DNA of 64,000 bases from Lysobacterales bacterium PRO7. Its GTDB lineage: Bacteria > Pseudomonadota > Gammaproteobacteria > Xanthomonadales > Rhodanobacteraceae. The notes below the pieces were generated by a model. The model was not told the origin of the DNA. It worked only from the letters and a program-made list of their open reading frames with translations, and did no database searches. Of this stretch, positions 32,577 through 62,707 are shown piece after piece. Position numbers and translations under genes: made by a program. The DNA lies in the NCBI GenBank assembly GCA_021404785.1, contig QWHH01000014.1, forward strand, positions 19,997 to 83,996, given 5' to 3'. The stretch's first letter is position 1, and the number at the start of each line of letters is the position of its first letter.

Positions 32577-33536
32577 ATGTCACGTATCCGGTCTATTGAT
32601 CGCTCGCGCCCTCTGCTGGTTCTCATGCTTCTCTCCCCAGCAGTTCATGCCAGCAACTTTCAGCGCAACTACATCATCGACAGCGTGTTCTTGCCTGTCA
32701 GCAACAGTGAAGCGACCACGTATGCCATCGACTTGAATGGCGACGGTCATGTGGACAACAATCTTGGATCCGTGTTTGCTGTGCTCGCAGCTCAGGGCAT
32801 TGATCTGAACGGCTCGACGAATGCTGCGGTTGACAATGGCAGCGTCGTTCATCGAATCGATTTGCAAAGCACGGATGCAAGCTTTACGAGCGATCCCGCC
32901 GCCCAGGCAAGCTGGTGCGTGGGTAGTGCGTTGCCGCAGCCGCCGCTGTTCGACGGCACGGATCAAGCGGCGTGCGATAGTAGCTATGTGCCCGGAACTT
33001 TTGTGGCTGCGCTGTCCGGCGGCAACTTCACATCGGCCAATCCGGTGACCACGACCACACCGGTTACCCTGAACATTTTGATAGCGCTTGGCTCGCAAAC
33101 GGTTGCGTTGCCGTTGAACGGTGCGCGCCTGTCCTTCACCAGCGACAATAGCGGCCCGGGGCATTTGCAGGGTCAACTCAACGGGTCCATCCTCCATGCC
33201 GATGTCAACACCGAGGTATTGCCTGCATTGGCGGCCGCATTCAATTCTCTGATTCAGAACGATCCGACCTCACCCACTGCCAACAGTATCAAGTCACTAT
33301 TCGACACCGGTTGCAGTGGCAATCCGGAGTTTGCGCATGATGGCCAAATCGAAGCTTGCGAATTGTTTGAGAGTAGCCTCATTACCGCTTTGCTGGCGCC
33401 GGATGTGCAGATCTACGATGCGCTAGGCCACTACGCTCCCAATCCGGCCAACACGACTCCCGATTCCAATTCGTTGGGTATTCGATTCACGGCAGTACGT
33501 CGTGACAGAGTGTTCGCAAACGGATTCGAACCATAG
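32577..33536 (+). CDS. Exported protein of unknown function with C-terminal FANGFEP tail
   Basis: 319 residues with a signal peptide (LLVLMLLSPAVHA, cleavage near ASN). The mature protein is low in charge and rich in Ser, Thr, Asn and Asp, with predicted beta-strands and two Asp-rich loops that may bind calcium (AIDLNGDGHVDNN, FAHDGQIEACE). It ends RDRVFANGFEP; a short F-x2-GFE tail recurs at the very end of secreted proteins in related bacteria and may be a sorting or processing signal. No catalytic motif seen. GGGGAGTAG before the ATG could serve as ribosome-binding site. No operon partner. Confidence 0.8.
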   Translation: MSRIRSIDRSRPLLVLMLLSPAVHASNFQRNYIIDSVFLPVSNSEATTYAIDLNGDGHVDNNLGSVFAVLAAQGIDLNGSTNAAVDNGSVVHRIDLQSTDASFTSDPAAQASWCVGSALPQPPLFDGTDQAACDSSYVPGTFVAALSGGNFTSANPVTTTTPVTLNILIALGSQTVALPLNGARLSFTSDNSGPGHLQGQLNGSILHADVNTEVLPALAAAFNSLIQNDPTSPTANSIKSLFDTGCSGNPEFAHDGQIEACELFESSLITALLAPDVQIYDALGHYAPNPANTTPDSNSLGIRFTAVRRDRVFANGFEP

Positions 33537-54976: not shown

Positions 54977-55379
54977 CGCCCGACTTCGGCAGCGGGATCA
55001 CCTTGGCGCCCTTGCCGGAGAACTTGCGCGGCTTGTCGCGGCGCAGTTGTGCCAGGTCCTGTTCCAGGATCGCGAGCTTTTGCGTCAGTCGGCGCAGTTG
55101 GCGTTCGTTGCGTGAGCGGCCGATGTCCATCGTCAGCAGGCGTACCAGGATCATGCCGATGCCGATGACGATCGGCAGCACCGGCGGATAGTGGATGCCG
55201 GTGACGTGGCCCAGCCAGTCGATCGCGGGCGGAAAGATGCCCAGGACCAGGATTGCGCCGGCCACCGCGAACCACCACAGCGCGTAACTGCCGTGCAGGT
55301 GGTTGCGCCGCACCAGCAGCAGGATGGTGCCGGCCAGCAGCGCGCCGATGATAGCGGCGGTGATCTGCACGGCGTTCAT
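54969..55379 (-). CDS. DUF2304-family membrane protein
   Basis: 136 residues with three membrane segments (ITAAIIGALLAGTILLLV, LWWFAVAGAILVLGIFPPAI, LPIVIGIGMILVRLLTMDIG) and a charged C-terminal coiled coil (NERQLRRLTQKLAILEQDLA). DUF2304 proteins usually lie next to a GT2 glycosyltransferase, as here, and are thought to assist polyprenyl-phosphate sugar transfer. Start overlaps the GT2 stop as ATGA; its end overlaps the GT4 start. Confidence 0.88.
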   Translation of the reverse strand: MNAVQITAAIIGALLAGTILLLVRRNHLHGSYALWWFAVAGAILVLGIFPPAIDWLGHVTGIHYPPVLPIVIGIGMILVRLLTMDIGRSRNERQLRRLTQKLAILEQDLAQLRRDKPRKFSGKGAKVIPLPKSGDG

Positions 55380-56080
55380 GCGCGCGCTCCGGCGCGGCCC
55401 GCGCCGATCTGCGCGAAACACAACACCGAGGTGTGCAGCATGTAGCGCAGCACGGTGGGCCAGGACGAAAACACGCGCGAGCCACCGTTGCGACGCTGCG
55501 ACATCGGCGTAGGCACTTCCGCCAGTTTCAGGCCGTAACTGCGCAACAGCATGAGCACGCCCAGGTCCTGGTAATCGAGCAGGCTGGCCTCGCGCGCGGC
55601 CAGGGCGCGGATCGCGCGACGGTCGTACACGCGCAAACCGGAGGTGAAATCCTGCACGCCGATACCGGTGATGAGGTGAAAATAACCCGCGGCCAGGCGC
55701 TTGGCCTTCGACAGGCGCTGCGGAAACGTGCCGATCGCCACGTTCGCGCCGCTGGCCAGCCAGGCGGCGACCAGTCGCGGCAATTCTTCGGGATGATGCT
55801 GGCCGTCGGCGTCGAGCGTCAGCGCCACCGCATAACGGTTGCGCCGCGCGTAGCGCAGACCGGTTTGCGCCGCGCCCCATGCGCCCAGACGCAGCGGCAA
55901 GTCGAGCACCACTGCGCCCGCGCACCGCGCCTGCGTGGAAGTCTCGTCGTCGCTGGCATCGTTGACCACCAGCACGTCGCCGCCCACCGCCGCGCGCACG
56001 CGGCGCACGATTTCGCCCACGGTCGCCGCTTCGTTGCGCGCGGGGATCACGGTGAGCAGGTTGGCGGCGTAGTCGGGCAC
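55376..56080 (-). CDS. GT2-family glycosyltransferase, dolichol-phosphate mannosyltransferase-like
   Basis: 234 residues of the GT-A fold without membrane helices. N-terminal LLTVIPARNEAATVGEIVRR, VLVVNDASDDETSTQARCAG, and the metal-binding ALTLDADGQHHPEELPRLVA; later DFTSGLRVYDRRAI and PTPMSQRRNGGSR. It resembles polyprenyl-phosphate hexose synthases, which make lipid-linked sugars used by GT-C enzymes. The start is GTG at 56078-56080. First gene of GT2-DUF2304-GT4; a TATACA about 17 bases before the GTG may be its -10. Confidence 0.88.
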   Translation of the reverse strand: MPDYAANLLTVIPARNEAATVGEIVRRVRAAVGGDVLVVNDASDDETSTQARCAGAVVLDLPLRLGAWGAAQTGLRYARRNRYAVALTLDADGQHHPEELPRLVAAWLASGANVAIGTFPQRLSKAKRLAAGYFHLITGIGVQDFTSGLRVYDRRAIRALAAREASLLDYQDLGVLMLLRSYGLKLAEVPTPMSQRRNGGSRVFSSWPTVLRYMLHTSVLCFAQIGAGRAGARA

Positions 56081-56182
56081 GGCAAAATCCAGTTGTATAC
56101 GCGCATTGTCGGGTGGCCATCAGAAGGCGTCAATGCGGTGCGAGCAATGTTTGGACTACATCCGTGCATAAATCGAAGTGAT

Positions 56183-56200
56183 TGCAATACGTGTATTGCA
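56183..56200. promoter_or_regulatory. Palindromic operator candidate of the RelE/ParE-type toxin-antitoxin module
   Basis: TGCAATAC-GT-GTATTGCA, a perfect 8-2-8 inverted repeat, 37 bases before the antitoxin ATG. It overlaps a possible promoter: TTGCAA (56182), 17 bases, TAGTCT (56205). This is where a ribbon-helix-helix antitoxin would autoregulate. Confidence 0.65.
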
Positions 56201-56237
56201 GTGATAGTCTGGCCACAACCCGACTGCGTAGACCGTC

Positions 56238-56462
56238 ATGCTTGCCGTGAGATTGCCGGAAATCATCGAAAAACGCCTCGATGCGCTGGCCAAGCGCACC
56301 GGGCGCACCAAGACGTTTTATGTACGCGAAGCGCTGGTCGAACATCTGGCGGATCTGGAAGACTTGTACCTTGCCGAGCGCGAGCTCGACCGGGTTCGCG
56401 CTGGTCGCAGCGCAACCGTTCCGCTCGATGCGCTGATGCGCGACTATGGCCTGGCGGATTGA
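56238..56462 (+). CDS. Ribbon-helix-helix antitoxin of a RelE/ParE-type module
   Basis: 74 residues. The N-terminus VRLPEIIEKRLDALAKRTGR and KTFYVREALVEHLADLEDLY is a ribbon-helix-helix DNA-binding domain of the RelB/StbD/DUF6290 kind (a short strand followed by two helices). The C-terminal part (LDRVRAGRSATVPLDALMRD) would bind and block the toxin. It overlaps the toxin gene by 17 bases. A perfect palindrome upstream is the expected operator. Confidence 0.9.
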   Translation: MLAVRLPEIIEKRLDALAKRTGRTKTFYVREALVEHLADLEDLYLAERELDRVRAGRSATVPLDALMRDYGLAD

Positions 56463-56715
56463 ATTATCGGCATTGGCGCACAAGACCCTGCGCAGCCTCG
56501 ACCGCGCCGTCGCCCAGCGCATCCTGCGGTTTCTGCACGAACGCATTGCCCCTGCGCACGACCCGCGAAGTGTTGGCGAAGCGCTCAAAGGTTCGAAACT
56601 CGGCGGTTTCTGGAAATATCGGGTCGGCGATTATCGATTGATCGCCCATATCGACGATGGGGTGGCGCTTGTCCTGGTCCTGCGCATCGGGCACCGGCGC
56701 GAGGTTTACCGCTAA
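56446..56715 (+). CDS. RelE/ParE-family toxin
   Basis: 89 residues. WRIELSALAHKTLRSLDRAV at the start, ILRFLHERIA, then GSKLGGFWKYRVGDYRLIAH and LVLVLRIGHRREVYR at the end, a good match to RelE-type toxins, whose conserved C-terminal Arg/Lys/Tyr residues (YRVGDYRL, GHRREVYR) cut mRNA on the ribosome. Whether it is RelE-like (ribonuclease) or ParE-like (gyrase) cannot be settled here; the GHRREVY ending favours RelE. Coupled to the antitoxin by a 17-base overlap. Confidence 0.92.
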   Translation: MAWRIELSALAHKTLRSLDRAVAQRILRFLHERIAPAHDPRSVGEALKGSKLGGFWKYRVGDYRLIAHIDDGVALVLVLRIGHRREVYR

Positions 56716-56839
56716 GGTCATCCTGACCTGTCCGCTTTCCCCCTTCTTTTGCGTTCTTGTACCCGAGTGCTCGTAGGGGCATGGATTTTGGGTTCCGGTA
56801 ACCGCGTCACAGTCCGCCTGAGCAATCCGCGCCAAGCTA

Positions 56840-56868
56840 TTGACCGGATTGAGCAAGCACTCTAGACT
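56840..56868 (+). promoter_or_regulatory. Sigma-70 promoter of the 56937 gene
   Basis: TTGACC, 17 bases, TAGACT. Each box matches the consensus at 4-5 of 6 positions with ideal spacing. The start codon lies 69 bases downstream, behind CGGGAGA. Confidence 0.6.
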
Positions 56869-56936
56869 CGGCAAAATCGGGCAATCAGGCAGCGGGGCAG
56901 GGGCCTAGGCCACCCCCGATCGAACGGGAGATAAGC

Positions 56937-57731
56937 ATGAAATCGTTTCAGATGAAGGCGTTGGCTCTGGCTACGCTCGGTTTGGGCGGTCTGGTGATGG
57001 CGGGCAGCGCGTTTGCGGCGACTTGCCCGACAGGCGTTGCCCAGGCAGATGGTGGCGCATGGAGTGGAAAGAACGTGGTTGCGGGAACAATGACTGTCGT
57101 TAACGGCGGGTTGGAGTCCCCGACCCCGAGCTCGTGTGCGATGAGTTCCACTATCACGTCATTCAATCCGTTTGCGGCTGCGGCTGCGGTCGATAATTCA
57201 CCGCAGAACGAAGTTACTTATCGTGCTCAATTTCTCATTAACGCTGGCGCAATAGTCAACCTAGGCCCGTTCAACAGCGTACAAATTTTTGGTGCAAACG
57301 CTGCCAATTCAGCATCGACCAATAACCCCACGACGCAGATTCTGAAGATGACTCTGAGTGGGTCGGGTGCAAATAACACAGTGAATTTTATCGCAGCGTG
57401 TTCGAATGGCAGTAACGATCGCTGCTCTACGAGTGCGCCGCTTGCAGCCGGGGTTAATCGAATCGAGATCCAGATCATCATGGGTTCGGGTACCGGCGCG
57501 CAGTTGAATTATTGGATCAACAATACAAACTCCGCCAGCCCGACTGGCAGCATCCAGGCTGCTCTGGGCGTCGCTGGCTTTGATAACTCGGCTTGGGTAG
57601 GAGTCAAAGCGGCGGTGCTTGGATTGATCAATCCGACCAATGGTTTTATGACAGGCGGATCTTCGCAGCTTAACCACGCCGTTTTGTTTGATGCATTCGA
57701 TTCGCGGCGTCAAACGTTTATCGGTGGCTGA
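56937..57731 (+). CDS. Exported protein of unknown function, SRRQTFIG C-terminus
   Basis: 264 residues with a signal peptide (LALATLGLGGLVMAGSAFA). The mature protein is rich in Asn, Ser, Thr and Gly with predicted beta-strands and two cysteine pairs (TCPTG...SSCAM, ACSNGSNDRC). A hydrophobic strand at VTYRAQFLINAGAIVNLGPF is conspicuous. It ends LNHAVLFDAFDSRRQTFIGG. Codons are notably richer in A and T than in the housekeeping genes. I do not recognise a family; extracellular or outer-surface location is likely. Strong promoter upstream; the next secreted gene is 61 bases on. Confidence 0.78.
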   Translation: MKSFQMKALALATLGLGGLVMAGSAFAATCPTGVAQADGGAWSGKNVVAGTMTVVNGGLESPTPSSCAMSSTITSFNPFAAAAAVDNSPQNEVTYRAQFLINAGAIVNLGPFNSVQIFGANAANSASTNNPTTQILKMTLSGSGANNTVNFIAACSNGSNDRCSTSAPLAAGVNRIEIQIIMGSGTGAQLNYWINNTNSASPTGSIQAALGVAGFDNSAWVGVKAAVLGLINPTNGFMTGGSSQLNHAVLFDAFDSRRQTFIGG

Positions 57732-57792
57732 CGGTCCCATACGCTCAAAAAGCTGTTGTCGAACCAGTTGTATTTATTTTTGGAGAACTCAA

Positions 57793-58314
57793 ATGAGAAA
57801 TTTGCTGTTGACCGCTTGCGCCGGGATGCTCTTGTTTTCGGCGGCTGCGTCTGCCCAGACTTGCACAGCCCCACCGCCCTTCGACCTTAACGCGAATCAA
57901 GGCCTGAGTGGGCAAGATACCTGTAGCGGGTCGAATATTGCCGGAACCCTCTGTGGTGGTGTTTCTGCCCCGGAAAAAGATATTTTCTATTCGGTGACCT
58001 TGGCGCCGGGCTATACGGCGACTTCCATTGATTTGACAAACGCCCAGTCCGGCGCAGAGGTCTTTCAACCCGCCATGGTGCTGTATACGGGCGCTTGTGC
58101 GAACGGCGGTCCGGCATCTGGTTGCACGGCGACCGCGTTTGCTGCCTCAAATGGCGCTAACACCAGCCTGTCGTTGTCGGGCGTGCCAGCCGGATCTTAT
58201 TTTCTTGACGTGACATCATTTCCTGGTGTCGGTGCCGGCAACTGTGGTGCATACAATTTGGCCATCACTGGCGGTACCTTGCCAGTCAAACTGCAAAAGT
58301 TCTCCGTAAACTGA
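57793..58314 (+). CDS. Exported protein with PPC-like domain, LPVKLQKFSVN C-terminus
   Basis: 173 residues with a signal peptide (LLLTACAGMLLFSAAASAQ). The mature part matches a pre-peptidase C-terminal (PPC) beta-sandwich: DIFYSVTLAPGYTATSIDLT, ASNGANTSLSLSGVPAGSYF, FLDVTSFPGVGAGNCGAYNL. Such domains are usually fused to secreted enzymes; here it stands alone. It ends TLPVKLQKFSVN, a tail seen in other exported proteins of related bacteria. TGGAGA precedes the ATG. A terminator follows. Function unknown. Confidence 0.8.
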   Translation: MRNLLLTACAGMLLFSAAASAQTCTAPPPFDLNANQGLSGQDTCSGSNIAGTLCGGVSAPEKDIFYSVTLAPGYTATSIDLTNAQSGAEVFQPAMVLYTGACANGGPASGCTATAFAASNGANTSLSLSGVPAGSYFLDVTSFPGVGAGNCGAYNLAITGGTLPVKLQKFSVN

Positions 58315-58338
58315 GTTTTCGCAAGTGAAATACCCTCG

Positions 58339-58368
58339 AACCCCGCCCCGCGCGGGGTTCGGTTTTTT
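58339..58368 (+). terminator. Rho-independent terminator
   Basis: Perfect 8-bp stem AACCCCGC/GCGGGGTT, five-base loop, then CGG and six T. It follows the PPC-protein gene by 24 bases. Confidence 0.92.
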
Positions 58369-58446
58369 GGGGCTCATCTAAAGAGCGGGCACTACGCACC
58401 ATTCCAGCTAGAATGGCGTGCTTGCGTCACTTATTCGGAATCTATC

Positions 58447-59817
58447 GTGTTGAAAGCCATACTAGCTGTTTTGTCGTCACTGTTCGCCGCTTCGGCGTAT
58501 GCGCAAGTGACGCTCGAAGCGCAGGATGTAGGCGAAATCTACCAAGGCAATACTGGCCACTCGGCCATCCTGTTCAATAACACTAGCAATAAGTCTATAA
58601 AGATTCTGTTGGTCACGCCGGCCTTCGAAAAGGACGGCGTTGGCGAATTCAAGCTGCCGGCTACGGTAGCGTCGAAAACCAGCGTCAACATTCCGGTGAC
58701 GGTGTTCAGCGGCATGGATGCGGGCGATCACCGCCATATCTTCAACATCGAAACCGATGCGCCAAAGAGTCCGCGCGTGTCAACATTGGTGCATCTGTTT
58801 GGGCTGTCGGTACTGGATGACGCTGCGCCAAATGTCGACTTGGGCACGGTGAATACGAATACCGCGCCACCAAGCAAGACTGTGACGCTTTCCAGCCGTG
58901 AGGTGCCGAATTTCCACATTACGCGCATTGTTGAAATGCCCGATTTCGTCACGGCAAAAATCGAACCCGACGGACGCACGGTTTCGATCAGCGGCAAGTC
59001 GGACGCCGGTTGGGGCCTTCACGACGGCTACGTCAAGGTGGCGCTGAATTCGACGGTGCAGCCGCAAGCATGGATTGCCGTCACCGCCGACGTGCATGGC
59101 GATGTGATTCCTTCGGCCAATCCGGTCGAGATGGGGTCATTTCGAAACACCAAGCAGCCTTTTTTAGTGCAGTTGAAGAGTCGGGACGGTATTCCAGTCA
59201 AACTCGGCAAGGTCACCCTCGAAGGGTTCATGGGCACCGTGACGAAGGGGCCTTGTATCGGCAATACGGTGGGTTGTGCGCAGATCTCCGTCGCAGTTGC
59301 AAAAAACCTTGCCAGCGGCATCGTGCGGGGCAAGCTGCTTGTTGAGCTTCCGGCATATCATCGCGCCCTTCCAATTGCGATTGGGGGCTTCTACTTGCCC
59401 GAAAGCGCGAAGGTCATTTCGTTAAATCAGGCGATGGAAAGAGGGCCCAAGAGCAGCGCCGAACCCCCGCCGTTGGACCTCAAATCAGCGCTGCAGAATT
59501 CCACGCAAGCCGATTCCGCGCTACCACCGACCGATCCACCCGGCCATGGCCCGTTGCTCAAATGGCAGGTGTCGAACGAGAACAACATCTACGGCTATCT
59601 GGTTTATCGCGGCGATGCCGAAAATGGCCCGTTCCTGCGCGTGAACAAGGACATCGTGCACGTCGGCGCCGACAAGGGCGACGGCATCACTTCGTCGTAC
59701 GCCTGGCGCGACGATTCCGCGACGGCCGGAAAAACCTACTGGTACTACATCGGCATGCTCAACCGCGACGGCAGCAAGCAGCAGCTGAGTGGCCCGCAGG
59801 AAGTCAAGGCCAAGTAA
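58447..59817 (+). CDS. Exported multi-domain protein with Ig-like folds
   Basis: 456 residues with a signal peptide (LKAILAVLSSLFAASAYAQ). About three Ig-like/DUF1573-like repeats follow, with patterns such as GEIYQGNTGHSAILFNNTSN, NIPVTVFSGMDAGDHRHIFN, DLGTVNTNTAPPSKTVTLSS. After a Pro/Ser linker near residue 345 comes a fibronectin-III-like domain (LLKWQVSNENNIYGYLVYRG, YAWRDDSATAGKTYWYYIGM). These are adhesion- or matrix-type modules; no enzyme motif. Start GTG at 58447 followed by TTG. Has its own terminator. Probably periplasmic or surface. Confidence 0.8.
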   Translation: MLKAILAVLSSLFAASAYAQVTLEAQDVGEIYQGNTGHSAILFNNTSNKSIKILLVTPAFEKDGVGEFKLPATVASKTSVNIPVTVFSGMDAGDHRHIFNIETDAPKSPRVSTLVHLFGLSVLDDAAPNVDLGTVNTNTAPPSKTVTLSSREVPNFHITRIVEMPDFVTAKIEPDGRTVSISGKSDAGWGLHDGYVKVALNSTVQPQAWIAVTADVHGDVIPSANPVEMGSFRNTKQPFLVQLKSRDGIPVKLGKVTLEGFMGTVTKGPCIGNTVGCAQISVAVAKNLASGIVRGKLLVELPAYHRALPIAIGGFYLPESAKVISLNQAMERGPKSSAEPPPLDLKSALQNSTQADSALPPTDPPGHGPLLKWQVSNENNIYGYLVYRGDAENGPFLRVNKDIVHVGADKGDGITSSYAWRDDSATAGKTYWYYIGMLNRDGSKQQLSGPQEVKAK

Positions 59818-59846
59818 GCGCAGGTTTTTCACCATCTGCCGAGTTG

Positions 59847-59881
59847 CCAAACCCCGCCGCGCGCGGGGTTTGGTTTTTTTT
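59847..59881 (+). terminator. Rho-independent terminator
   Basis: Perfect 11-bp stem CCAAACCCCGC/GCGGGGTTTGG, loop CGCGC, then a run of eight T. It is built from the same AACCCCGC core as the terminator at 58339. Confidence 0.93.
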
Positions 59882-59885
59882 CGGG

Positions 59886-59929
59886 TTGACAGCCGCGCTC
59901 ACCCATCCTAGTATCTACAATGTAGATAC
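59886..59929 (+). promoter_or_regulatory. mazEF promoter with palindromic operator
   Basis: TTGACA (59886-59891), 17 bases, TAGTAT (59909-59914). A perfect palindrome GTATCTACA-A-TGTAGATAC (59911-59929) overlaps the -10 and start site, so a bound MazE-MazF complex would block RNA polymerase. The mazE ATG is 22 bases beyond. Confidence 0.8.
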
Positions 59930-59950
59930 TCCTCATGGCACGGGAACATC

Positions 59951-60193
59951 ATGCGTACCGAAATCAAAAAATGGGGCAACAGCGCATCACTGCGCATTCC
60001 CGCCGCGGTGCTGGCAGCGGCGAATCTGCGTGTCGACGCATCCGTCGATGTGCGCGAAGAAGGTGGCCGCATCGTGATAGATCCGGTGCGCGATGAGGCG
60101 GTTTCGCTGGATTCGCTGCTCGCGCGCATCGTGCCCGACAACCTTCACGACGAAGCGGACTTTGGCGCGCCGGTCGGCAGGGAATTGTTGTAA
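59951..60193 (+). CDS. mazE: MazE-type (AbrB-fold) antitoxin
   Basis: 80 residues. The N-terminal swapped-hairpin AbrB/MazE DNA-binding domain reads TEIKKWGNSASLRIPAAVLA and VDVREEGGRIVIDPVRD. The C-terminal VSLDSLLARIVPDNLHDEAD is the acidic toxin-binding tail. It would neutralise MazF and repress the module by binding the palindrome upstream. It lies 2 bases before mazF. Confidence 0.93.
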   Translation: MRTEIKKWGNSASLRIPAAVLAAANLRVDASVDVREEGGRIVIDPVRDEAVSLDSLLARIVPDNLHDEADFGAPVGRELL

Positions 60194-60195
60194 GC

Positions 60196-60531
60196 ATGCG
60201 CCGTTTTGTGCCCGACGCCGGCGACGTGGTGTGGTTGCGCTTCGATCCGCAAAGCGGGCGCGAGCAGGCCGGCCACAGGCCTGCCCTGGTGTTGAGCCCG
60301 GCTGCGTACAACGACAAGACCAGTCTTATGCTGTGCTGTCCCTTGACTACAAAAATCAAGGGCTATCCTTTTGAAGTTCCCATTGCCGGTGTGCGCAGCG
60401 GGGTGGCACTGGCGGATCAGATCAAGAGTCTCGATTGGCGTACCCGCGCCGCTTCGCGCAAAGGCCGGGCAACCGCGGCAGAATTGGCGAGCGTACGTCG
60501 ACTCGCCATCGCACTGATCGGCGAACCCTGA
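60196..60531 (+). CDS. mazF: MazF-type endoribonuclease toxin
   Basis: 111 residues of the PemK/MazF fold. PDAGDVVWLRFDPQSGREQA at the start, HRPALVLSPAAYNDKTSLML with the catalytic arginine in the REQAGHRPALV segment, PLTTKIKGYPFEVPI (with the conserved Thr), and VALADQIKSLDWRTRAAS. It cleaves mRNA at short specific sites; the site is not predictable here. Its stop is 6 bases from that of lpxH on the other strand. Confidence 0.94.
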   Translation: MRRFVPDAGDVVWLRFDPQSGREQAGHRPALVLSPAAYNDKTSLMLCCPLTTKIKGYPFEVPIAGVRSGVALADQIKSLDWRTRAASRKGRATAAELASVRRLAIALIGEP

Positions 60532-60537
60532 AGCCGG

Positions 60538-61227
60538 TCAAGGCAAAGCAAGCGAACTCGCCTGCTCGTACCAATCGCCGAGCACGATGCGCTCGGCTTT
60601 GTTTCCGCCCATGTCGAAACGATGCGTGGCAGGTCGGTGCGTGTGGCCATGGATCAGGCGGCGCACTGCGTGTTGGCGCATTGCCGCTTCGACCGCAGCC
60701 TGATTTACATCCATGATCTCCGGCTTCGCGTTCGCGGTGTGCTTGCGGCTTTCCCCGCGCGCCTGCGCGGCGAAGGCGCGGCGCTCGGCCAGCGGCTTGG
60801 CGAGAAAGGCGCGCTGCCAGACCGGATCGCGCACGAGTTTGCGAAACTGCAAATAGGCGGCATCGTCGGTGCACAGGGTGTCGCCGTGCATCAGCAGCGT
60901 CGGCTCGCCGCCGAGTTCGACCACCGTTGGAACGGGGAGCAGGGTCATGCCGGCGCGCGCGGCATAATCTTCGCCGAGCAGGAAATCGCGGTTGCCGTGC
61001 ATGAAGTACACCGGCACGCCCGCTGCACGAACCTTGCGCGTGGCGCGCGCCACGCGCGCATTCAGCGGTGCATCGTCGTCGTCGCCGATGTAGCTTTCGA
61101 ACAGGTCGCCGAGGATGTACAGCGCCTGTACTGCGCGGGCTTCACCGGCAAGCAAATCCTCGAACGCATCGACGAGATGCGGACGCGCTTCGTCCAGGTG
61201 CAGGTCGGAGATGAAAAGTGTTGCCAT
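60538..61227 (-). CDS. lpxH: UDP-2,3-diacylglucosamine diphosphatase
   Basis: Makes lipid X in lipid A synthesis. 229 residues. Calcineurin-like metal ligands are clear: FISDLHLDEARPH, LYILGDLFESYIGDDD, YFMHGNRDFLLG, LMHGDTLCTDDAAYLQFR and RLIHGHTHRPATH. In E. coli and relatives lpxH directly follows the cyclophilin gene ppiB. Here a cyclophilin gene also lies upstream, but higBA lies between them, ending 10 bases before lpxH, so lpxH may now be read from the higBA promoter. Confidence 0.95.
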   Translation of the reverse strand: MATLFISDLHLDEARPHLVDAFEDLLAGEARAVQALYILGDLFESYIGDDDDAPLNARVARATRKVRAAGVPVYFMHGNRDFLLGEDYAARAGMTLLPVPTVVELGGEPTLLMHGDTLCTDDAAYLQFRKLVRDPVWQRAFLAKPLAERRAFAAQARGESRKHTANAKPEIMDVNQAAVEAAMRQHAVRRLIHGHTHRPATHRFDMGGNKAERIVLGDWYEQASSLALP

Positions 61228-61237
61228 GCGCTGCCGG

Positions 61238-61531
61238 TCAGGCGGCGCGCAGCGGCGTGATGCGCTTCAAATCGTCATGCAGCCGCTCGCGGGCGATTTC
61301 TGTATCGAATTTCGCCTGCAATCGCAGCCACCATCCATCAGACAAGCCAAAGAATCGACACATGCGCAGGTCCGTGTCGGCTGTTATGGAGCGGCGTCCG
61401 GCGACGATTTCGCCGATCCGCTGCGCAGGCACGCCGATTTCCTTGGCTAAACGGTATTGGCTCATGCCCAATGGCGCGAGAAATTCTTGCGAGAGCATTT
61501 CGCCGGGGGAAACTGGTGGAATCGCACGCAT
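61238..61531 (-). CDS. higA: HigA-family antitoxin
   Basis: 97 residues with an XRE-type helix-turn-helix: SPGEMLSQEFLAPLGMSQYR, LAKEIGVPAQRIGEIVAGRR, SITADTDLRMCRFFGLSDGW, WWLRLQAKFDTEIARE. The whole is the standard HigA/VapI domain. As usual for this group, the antitoxin follows the toxin (higB-higA, 14-base gap). It represses its own operon by binding upstream of higB. Confidence 0.94.
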   Translation of the reverse strand: MRAIPPVSPGEMLSQEFLAPLGMSQYRLAKEIGVPAQRIGEIVAGRRSITADTDLRMCRFFGLSDGWWLRLQAKFDTEIARERLHDDLKRITPLRAA

Positions 61532-61545
61532 GGACGTCTTCTATG

Positions 61546-61824
61546 TCAGTGATAATCGACGATTTGGACATCGAGCGCATTGCCGCGCTCAAACCGGAAG
61601 CAGACACGCCATTGGTCGTTGATGCGCACGCTCCATTGGCCGGCACGGTCGCCGTGCAGTTTCTCCAGCCTGTTGCCAGGCGGAGCGCGCATGTCCTCGA
61701 TGCGCGTGGCCAGGTCCAACTGTTCGAGCTTGCGCAAGGCAACCCGCTCGATTGGCGTCCAGCGCCGCACCCGGCGTCGTTGAAAAAGAGCTTCCGTATC
61801 GGAATCGCGGAAGCTCTCGATCAT
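61546..61824 (-). CDS. higB: HigB-family toxin
   Basis: 92 residues of the RelE superfamily plasmid-maintenance killer group. IESFRDSDTEALFQRRRVRR, LRKLEQLDLATRIEDMRAPP, GNRLEKLHGDRAGQWSVRIN, DQWRVCFRF and VDYH at the end match HigB well. It is a ribosome-dependent mRNA endonuclease. The ATG at 61824 gives the standard length; the reading continues open upstream but has no homology. It is preceded by direct repeats and a plausible promoter. Confidence 0.94.
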   Translation of the reverse strand: MIESFRDSDTEALFQRRRVRRWTPIERVALRKLEQLDLATRIEDMRAPPGNRLEKLHGDRAGQWSVRINDQWRVCFRFERGNALDVQIVDYH

Positions 61825-61843
61825 TGGGCAATGATAACGTCTC

Positions 61844-61869
61844 GCGTGATTAACGTCAAGCGTGATTAA
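61844..61869 (-). promoter_or_regulatory. higBA promoter/operator with 10-bp direct repeats
   Basis: GCGTGATTAA occurs at 61844-61853 and 61860-61869 (minus strand TTAATCACGC), 16 bases apart start to start. On the minus strand TTGACG between the repeats, 16 bases, TTATCA is a fair promoter. A HigA dimer binding each repeat would cover it. Confidence 0.6.
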
Positions 61870-61877
61870 ACGAAGCC

Positions 61878-62525
61878 TTACGGCACCACGCTCGCCTTCT
61901 CGATCACGATCGGCGTCTTCGGCACGTCGCTGACGAACGGGCCCTGCGGACCGGTTTCCACGGCCTTGATCTTGTCGACCACGTCCATGCCGTCGATGAC
62001 CTTGCCGAACACGGTGTAGCCCCACGACACGGTGCCGTTGGCATCGGCGATGTAGTCCAGGCGCTTGTTGTCGACCACGTTGACGAAGAACTCCGCCGCC
62101 GCCGAGTTCGGATCGGCGGTACGCGCCATCGCGACCGTGCCGCGCAGGTTGGACAGGCCGTTGTTGGCCTCGTTGCGCACCGGCGCGCGCGTGCGCTTGC
62201 GCTGCAGGTCTTTCGTCCAGCCGCCGCCCTGCACCATGAAATTGTTGATCACGCGATGGAACACGGTGCCGTCGTAGAAGCCGTCCTTGACGTATTGCAG
62301 GAAGTTCTCGACCGTCTTCGGCGCCTTGTCCGGATACAGTTCCAGCGTGATGTCGCCCATGCTGGTATGCAGCAGTACCTTGGGATTGGCGGCTGCGGGC
62401 GTTGGCGCGACGTCGCCGGTCTTGGCCGGTTCGGCGGCTTTGGCCGCCGGCTTGGCGGCGGGCGCAGCGGCAAACGCGGCGATCGGGATGAGCAGGGCGA
62501 GGGCGCAGATCAGACGCTTGAACAT
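61878..62525 (-). CDS. Exported cyclophilin-type peptidyl-prolyl isomerase
   Basis: 215 residues: a signal peptide (FKRLICALALLIPIAAFAAA), an Ala/Lys/Pro linker of about 30 residues, then a cyclophilin domain: VLLHTSMGDITLELYPDKAP, KTVENFLQYVKDGFYDGTVF, HRVINNFMVQGGG with the catalytic Arg, and NSAAAEFFVNVVDNKRLDYI. The Gln-Gly-Gly and FF blocks are intact. The signal peptide puts it in the periplasm, like PpiA, but its place upstream of lpxH recalls ppiB. Between them lies higBA. ppx lies upstream. Confidence 0.94.
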   Translation of the reverse strand: MFKRLICALALLIPIAAFAAAPAAKPAAKAAEPAKTGDVAPTPAAANPKVLLHTSMGDITLELYPDKAPKTVENFLQYVKDGFYDGTVFHRVINNFMVQGGGWTKDLQRKRTRAPVRNEANNGLSNLRGTVAMARTADPNSAAAEFFVNVVDNKRLDYIADANGTVSWGYTVFGKVIDGMDVVDKIKAVETGPQGPFVSDVPKTPIVIEKASVVP

Positions 62526-62621
62526 GGCGGACTCCAAAGGCCGGTTAGCGGAACCCGAATGATACGCAAACAGGCGCGCACGTGCGCGAATTTCGCGTTA
62601 GGGGAAACGCTGACCAAACCT

Positions 62622-62706
62622 GTCATTCCGGCAGGGATTGCCGGAATCCAGTTGCCAAGGACGGCATCCATGCAGTCTGGATACCGGCATTCCCTGCCGG
62701 TATGAC
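62622..62706. repeat. 85-bp inverted-repeat element, copy 2
   Basis: Two 30-base arms (GTCATTCCGGCAGGGATTGC... and ...ATTCCCTGCCGGTATGAC) and a 25-base loop; 27 of 30 arm positions pair. It has exactly the same arm and loop lengths as the copy at 16789-16873. It ends 1 base before the ppx stop codon and so lies between ppx and the isomerase gene, where it could act as a terminator. Confidence 0.88.
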
Positions 62707-62707
62707 G

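Follow-up and report, generated by a model that had tools for sequence, protein, structure and literature searches.

Why do three unrelated type II toxin-antitoxin (TA) pairs lie within 5.6 kb of one another in a bacterial genome of 2.81 Mb? The question is raised by a stretch of 64,000 nucleotides of Lysobacterales bacterium PRO7 (contig QWHH01000014.1; the stretch lies in contig C12 in our numbering), hereafter the window, in which an RHH-ParE pair, a MazEF pair and a HigBA pair stand together with three genes for exported-type proteins. An interpretation of the letters alone, the sequence-only reading, had proposed an accessory islet or a hot spot for insertion. Comparison within a genus set of 17 genomes (G000 to G016, G000 being the window's own) supports the view that the locus is a hot spot where related species carry different TA pairs and each junction acts as an independent slot. 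The duplicated gene ends found there suggest that TA pairs are acquired through recombination with relatives, and not through transposition by an enzyme that they themselves encode.

The three window pairs are type II TA systems by family match and gene arrangement, and all six members exceed the cut-off of a Pfam family; in NCBIfam, ParE and MazE fall below their cut-offs. On the forward strand, the gene of a ribbon-helix-helix (RHH), RelB-like antitoxin (56238..56462; Pfam TraY 38.6 bits, NF048017 106.7 bits) overlaps by 17 bp that of a ParE/RelE-type toxin (56446..56715; PF05016 ParE_toxin 56.1 bits), and this overlapping pair (56238-56715) with its family matches belongs to the ParE/RelE class. 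The MazEF/PemIK pair (59951-60531) consists of a MazE-type antitoxin gene (59951-60193, Pfam MazE 39.4 bits) followed by a PemK/MazF toxin gene (60196-60531, Pfam PemK 85.9 bits), both also forward. In HigBA (61238-61824, reverse strand), the HigB-like toxin gene (61546-61824; PF05015 HigB-like 66.2 bits) precedes the antitoxin gene higA (61238-61531; HTH_3 36.0 bits, TIGR02607 HigA 99.3 bits). The Pfam matches bear out the three modules that the sequence-only reading had named. Its further claim, that each has its own operator-like repeat, stood for ParE (palindrome at 56183..56200) and MazEF (59910-59930), whereas for HigBA the candidates are only an inverted repeat that is weak and, preceding higB, a direct repeat of 16 bp (61835..61866, 88% identity).

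Chance clustering alone is not decisive. Sixteen toxins of four families were found in G000, and random placement would bring three toxins within 5.6 kb with a chance of 0.6% for 16 toxins, 2.6% for 25 and 10% for 40; therefore the relatives have to carry the hot-spot claim.

Junction contents in the relatives

The closest named relatives of the window's genome are Lysobacterales/Rhodanobacteraceae metagenome-assembled genomes, one of them called Rudaea sp. Gene order was read in the 16 of 17 genus genomes in which LpxH was found; the open reading frames (ORFs) of the relatives' loci were read by eye, with a Pfam scan of the likely TA genes and a few others. The conserved string is GT2-exp1-exp2-exp3-LpxH-PPI, which is syntenic in G000, G008, G012, G013, G015 and G016; in G007 and G009, part of it can be seen at contig ends. 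GT2 (55376..56080, reverse), an ORF that is syntenic in relatives and that we take to be of glycosyltransferase type, is the left border of junction J1 (GT2|exp1). J2 is exp2|exp3 and J3 exp3|LpxH. The conserved LpxH-type phosphoesterase gene (60538..61227, reverse; PF00149) separates J3 from J4 (LpxH|PPI), and PPI (61878..62537, reverse), an ORF conserved beside LpxH and presumably of peptidyl-prolyl isomerase type, closes J4 on the right.

TA genes occupy these junctions in 9 of the 16 LpxH-bearing genomes, with 26 modules of eight families; the same slot holds different families between genomes, and empty slots of 50-96 bp occur. J1, readable in seven genomes, holds ParE in G000 and G013, ParE and HicB with a HicA-like partner in G008, BrnT/CopG and ParE in G012, and BrnT with an unmatched small partner in G015; in G007 it holds VapBC, BrnTA and a ParE-like/Unstab_antitox pair whose ParE and CopG matches are below cut-off, and in G016 it is empty. 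The HicA-like protein of G008, which matched nothing in Pfam or NCBIfam, is presumably of this family, to judge by its position. J2 holds MazEF in G015. At J3, MazEF is found in G000, VapBC in G007, HigBA in G009 and a nucleotidyltransferase-HEPN pair plus HigBA in G008. A beta-helix-type protein lies there in G012, G015 and G016 (by Pfam match in G015, by eye in the other two), followed in G012 by HigBA and a HicB-like gene, and in G013 the slot is empty (80 bp). J4, readable in 15 genomes, holds HigBA in G000 and G009, VapBC in G008, G013 and G016 (the G016 antitoxin read by eye from its ORF), VapBC and a PemK split over two hits in G012, PemIK in G014 and a 140-aa protein without match in G003; it is empty (50-96 bp) in G001, G002, G004, G005, G006, G010 and G015. 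A Gp49-type toxin lies beyond LpxH in G014.

The three modules do not share one place in all close relatives, the finding that would have refuted the sequence-only reading. The ParE pair occupies the same junction in three of the six other readable genomes (G008, G012, G013), and HigBA (92-95%) does so in one of 14 (G009). The window MazEF has a 93-95% relative in G015 at a different junction; the common unit (59909..60532, forward), recognised by its operator palindrome, Pfam and alignment, runs from the operator to one base past the mazF stop and is 85% identical over 624 bp, lying at J3 in the window and at J2 in G015. Several junctions are filled, and not one contiguous islet, because LpxH separates MazEF from HigBA. 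Of the two terms offered by the sequence-only reading, the comparison thus supports hot spot as the more apt, in the sense of a conserved gene string with independently filled junctions, and the single islet falls away.

Genus-wide searches of the 17 genomes gave 35 HigB, 20 PemK hits (19 genes, one split) and 95 PIN toxins; 15 of these 149 lie in the locus, which is 0.10% of the DNA, with ParE, BrnT and HEPN standing outside the count. Since the choice of locus rests on the window's genome, that genome was left out of the enrichment figure: 13 of 138 toxins lie in the locus versus 0.13 expected, about 99-fold with genome sizes rounded. Between the window and G008, eight gaps of at least 500 bp outside the region were inspected, and one contained a PIN-type toxin.

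Duplicated gene ends

Seven of the 26 locus modules stand between repeats of 19-156 bp that duplicate part of an adjacent gene end or boundary. When a repeat of at least 20 bp spanning the toxin was demanded alike of locus modules, control points and other TA toxins, 6 of 26 locus modules had one versus 1 of 77 control points (P 0.0009); the seventh is a HicB case of 19 bp. Self-BLAST of the controls gave 19 repeat pairs in 22 windows, and visual inspection attributed these to paralogues, repetitive genes or dispersed repeats.

Self-comparison showed that G008 has two copies of the exp3 end besides intact exp3. The first, of 156 bp (94%), stands between nucleotidyltransferase-HEPN, which follows intact exp3, and HigBA; the second, which is shorter, stands between HigBA and LpxH and is 99% identical to the intact end over 79 bp and 94% to the other copy over 87 bp. 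G012 has copies of three gene ends: that of PPI, 39 bp long (97%), between PemK and VapBC; that of BrnA, 44 bp long (91%), after ParE; and that of LpxH, present as two 34-bp copies (94% and 85%), around HigBA. Insertion with a long target duplication is therefore seen in G008 (79-156 bp) and G012 (34-44 bp), and was not found for the window modules. At J1, the repeated piece is a 14-bp boundary sequence upstream of exp1 (56727..56740, forward, by repeat comparison), which is single in G000 and G015, double in G007 and triple in G008, with a variant in G013 and none seen in G012 and G016. The G007 copies flank the ParE-like pair and share 23 identical bp, and two of the three G008 copies flank HicB and share 19. 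At J1 of G008, ParE and HicB adjoin a block of tandem repeats of about 240 bp each (L098, 10877-11297), which has a copy of the boundary sequence on either side.

The middle exp3 copy of G008, the one of 156 bp, has a legible history. Together with HigBA it can be aligned (784 columns, 76%) to G009, in which HigBA follows exp3 itself, and therefore it was probably once a working gene end. It differs from the intact exp3 end at 10 positions, 9 of which are third codon positions (P 0.0004); one difference falls in the stop codon, and without it the count is 8 of 9. Only one difference alters the protein, an I-to-V change that G013 and G015 also have. The copy is probably a former working exp3 end, displaced by an insert that brought another exp3 end.

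These differences bear on the reading in which ordinary local duplications, by slippage or staggered-break repair, accompanied the insertion of foreign DNA with no homologous donor. Variable copy length fits such duplications, which could account for the 19-23 bp copies at J1, and the LpxH, PPI and BrnA end copies of G012 are too short for a codon test. The middle copy, in contrast, differs almost only at third codon positions, which argues against local duplication because decay after it should ignore codons, and it also matches the G009 arrangement. We regard local duplication as a somewhat unlikely account of the locus.

Routes of arrival

The hot spot with its independent slots, the exchange of families within slots, the empty slots, the duplicated ends and the allele history of one copy are plain observations. 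As their cause we favour, with a probability of roughly 0.55, additive, homology-anchored recombination with the DNA of relatives at the hot-spot string from GT2 to PPI. A TA module would arrive on DNA of a related species in which it adjoins the same conserved gene or boundary. Homologous recombination within that gene would make one joint, and the other would form close by, where homology is slight or absent. The gene would keep an intact end, the module would be added, and a piece of the old gene end would stay on the far side. Repeats of the process would stack modules, with the newest beside the full-length gene, and recombination between end copies could restore an empty slot. Two-gene TA units could be placed between genes without harming them, and would tend to be retained because they are addictive. 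We infer in this account the order of events, the one-sided recombination, the uptake of relatives' DNA and addiction as the retaining force. LpxH has a differing short tail in nearly every exp-bearing genome, whereas five of the six exp-less genomes (G001-G006) have LpxH of the same length with similar tails; this variation fits joints at the very ends of genes. Homology-facilitated illegitimate recombination, which pairs a homologous joint with a non-homologous one, would give a product with a duplicated gene end. That process was reportedly described for transformation by de Vries and Wackernagel in 2002 as a laboratory process, whereas here it is suggested by old scars.

Several points weigh against recombination with relatives. 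Most relatives are fragmented draft assemblies, and 19 of the 26 modules, including all three in the window, have no bracketing repeat. The P values are soft, as the pattern was first seen in these loci and modules of one genome are non-independent. For only one copy is the codon test decisive; in G008's second copy of the exp3 end, three of four differences are at third positions (P 0.11). The copy history fits one homologous and one illegitimate joint in G008, and no donor genome was found. Sixteen of the 17 genus genomes have ComEC, as do 10 of 14 control genomes, including E. coli; therefore competence is only possible. Outside the locus, 8 of 100 TA toxins have a bracketing repeat versus 1 of 77 control points (P 0.04), which is a weak excess, and two of the eight cases were judged gene 3' ends (L221 clear, L244 plausible); of the rest, L224, L230, L231 and L265 are probably paralogues or 5' ends and L171 and L184 were ambiguous, and these six were set aside. 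As a general feature of TA insertion, gene-end scars are thus weakly supported by the sequences compared. At L221 (2374-3091), the last 28 bp of a 468-aa gene, which we take to be a serine dehydratase, recur so as to flank a PIN toxin of G016 on both sides, and the copy differs as if it came from another allele.

An old TA-rich locus, with modules largely ancestral, lost differently in each lineage and with little recent gain, would explain why the J4 VapBC alignment of G008 and G012 takes in PPI, why those of G008/G013 and G013/G016 extend through LpxH and PPI, and why ParE at J1 is common to four genomes and HigBA at J4 is contiguous in G000 and G009. It is unlikely in view of the different families in one slot, the position of MazEF at J2 in G015 and at J3 in the window, the duplicated ends between modules and the loci with LpxH identity of at most 70%, of which 1 in 26 has a J4 gap of more than 300 bp. 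A tree of LpxH, PPI and Ppx served for orientation only, because these genes may themselves be recombined.

Less probable still, in our judgement, are gene-end cassettes, in which a TA module and a conserved host gene end would form a mobile unit without a recombinase, released and re-inserted by homologous recombination. The duplicated ends would let the host's homologous recombination release the unit as a small circle, and one crossover could then insert this circle at the corresponding gene end in a related cell; the gene would stay intact, its end would be duplicated again, and addiction would retain the unit. If true, such cassettes could be a general route of chromosomal TA spread among relatives.

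A transposon or site-specific integrase that escaped detection and acts in trans is very unlikely. The modules are compact and bounded, and the same slots are reused, as it would predict. Against it, a constant target duplication was not found, the lengths (19-156 bp) and the source genes differing, and the modules showed no terminal repeat in common. A role of the J1 boundary sequence as a general recombinase site was rejected, the sequence being found with at most one mismatch only at J1 among 268 fetched records (2.3 Mb in total, many overlapping). The sequence-only reading had seen no transposase or integrase, and likewise no recombinase gene was recognised among the ORFs of these loci, which were read by eye with no dedicated recombinase search.

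Least probable of all is integron capture, in which a chromosomal integron integrase would have inserted TA cassettes at secondary sites whose attC later decayed: tempting given an integrase above the family cut-off in 12 of the 17 genus genomes including the window's own, an attC-like array beside the integrase near a contig end in G000, outside the window (G000:C2, L166 670-6064) and the integron-borne TA cassettes mentioned in passages of PMC7167474, it was rejected, as a simple attC scan found none in 49,953 bp of nine TA-bearing loci and several in G000's integron (its sensitivity is limited, none being found near G008's integrase either), the end of the window MazEF unit just past the mazF stop leaves no room for attC, and gene-end duplication is not an integron product. 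The locus is like chromosomal integron TA cassettes in having many TA modules side by side in the chromosome, in a genus with integrons, and unlike them in that no attC-like sites were found and no integrase was recognised beside the modules.

Exported proteins and the locus among known systems

Between the ParE and MazEF pairs lie exp1 (56937..57731), exp2 (57793..58314) and exp3 (58447..59817), three forward ORFs for exported-type proteins with no Pfam or NCBIfam match. Their lower GC, pointed out in the sequence-only reading, was confirmed, with 55.9% for the block versus 63.5% for the window. The interval 56081-61880 has 58.2%, a low value owed mainly to exp1-exp3, as the TA genes are only slightly low (59.5-62.8%); in 5.8-kb sliding segments starting up to 53,001 (500-bp steps), GC is never below 60.7%. 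Between species, exp1 and exp2 (56937-58314) are only 31-42% identical and the flanking genes are far more alike. The N-terminal start and the C-terminal tail of exp1 (DEFDSRRQTFIG-like) are nearly invariant, as is the C-terminal tail of exp2, LPVKLQKFSV. These variable bodies between fixed ends perhaps reflect a sorting tail and allele shuffling.

Terminator-like hairpins with T-runs follow exp2 (58339..58368, forward) and exp3 (59850..59879, forward), with 93% identity to each other. A similar hairpin follows exp3 in G008, upstream of its insert, and the exp2/exp3 hairpin sequence is absent from G013, where J3 is empty. A dispersed terminator as insertion target was rejected, since the exp3-type hairpin has just one further genomic copy, with 2 mismatches. 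Rfam matched nothing in the window, and PADLOC nothing among the window toxins and exported proteins. A dispersed repeat lies at 62622-62707, with several copies near GT1 and GT2 in relatives, e.g. L007. Elsewhere in the window, 32577-33536 encodes a 319-aa exported-type protein of low GC that ends in VFANGFEP and has no NCBIfam match; this stretch is missing from G008.

Plastic TA loci are known from enterobacteria, where, in the passages of PMC7167474 and PMC7232551 that treat them, folA-apaH carries ccd and relA-mazG carries mazEF or parDE; a review of these loci calls the integration mechanism unelucidated. As there, TA pairs here lie between conserved genes, with content differing at one site and no recombinase recognised; unlike there, TA pairs use several adjacent junctions and stack up in them, and copies of gene ends are left behind. 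Restriction-modification genes of Helicobacter pylori provide the other parallel, an addictive gene unit inserted with a long duplicated target (Nobusato et al. 2000, as described in passages of PMC1643837 and PMC3154945), whereas our case concerns TA modules, serial insertions and one duplicate that carries the history of another allele. Among the titles and abstract openings of open-licence papers, no report of gene-end copies around TA modules was found. TA modules stacked at gene ends with those ends duplicated appear to be a new combination, the plastic TA loci and long target duplication being already known.

The locus seems to hold stages of TA insertion, with the same slots empty, singly filled or stacked and with scars between modules. 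The gene-end scar may serve as a simple criterion to find recent TA insertions in other genomes.

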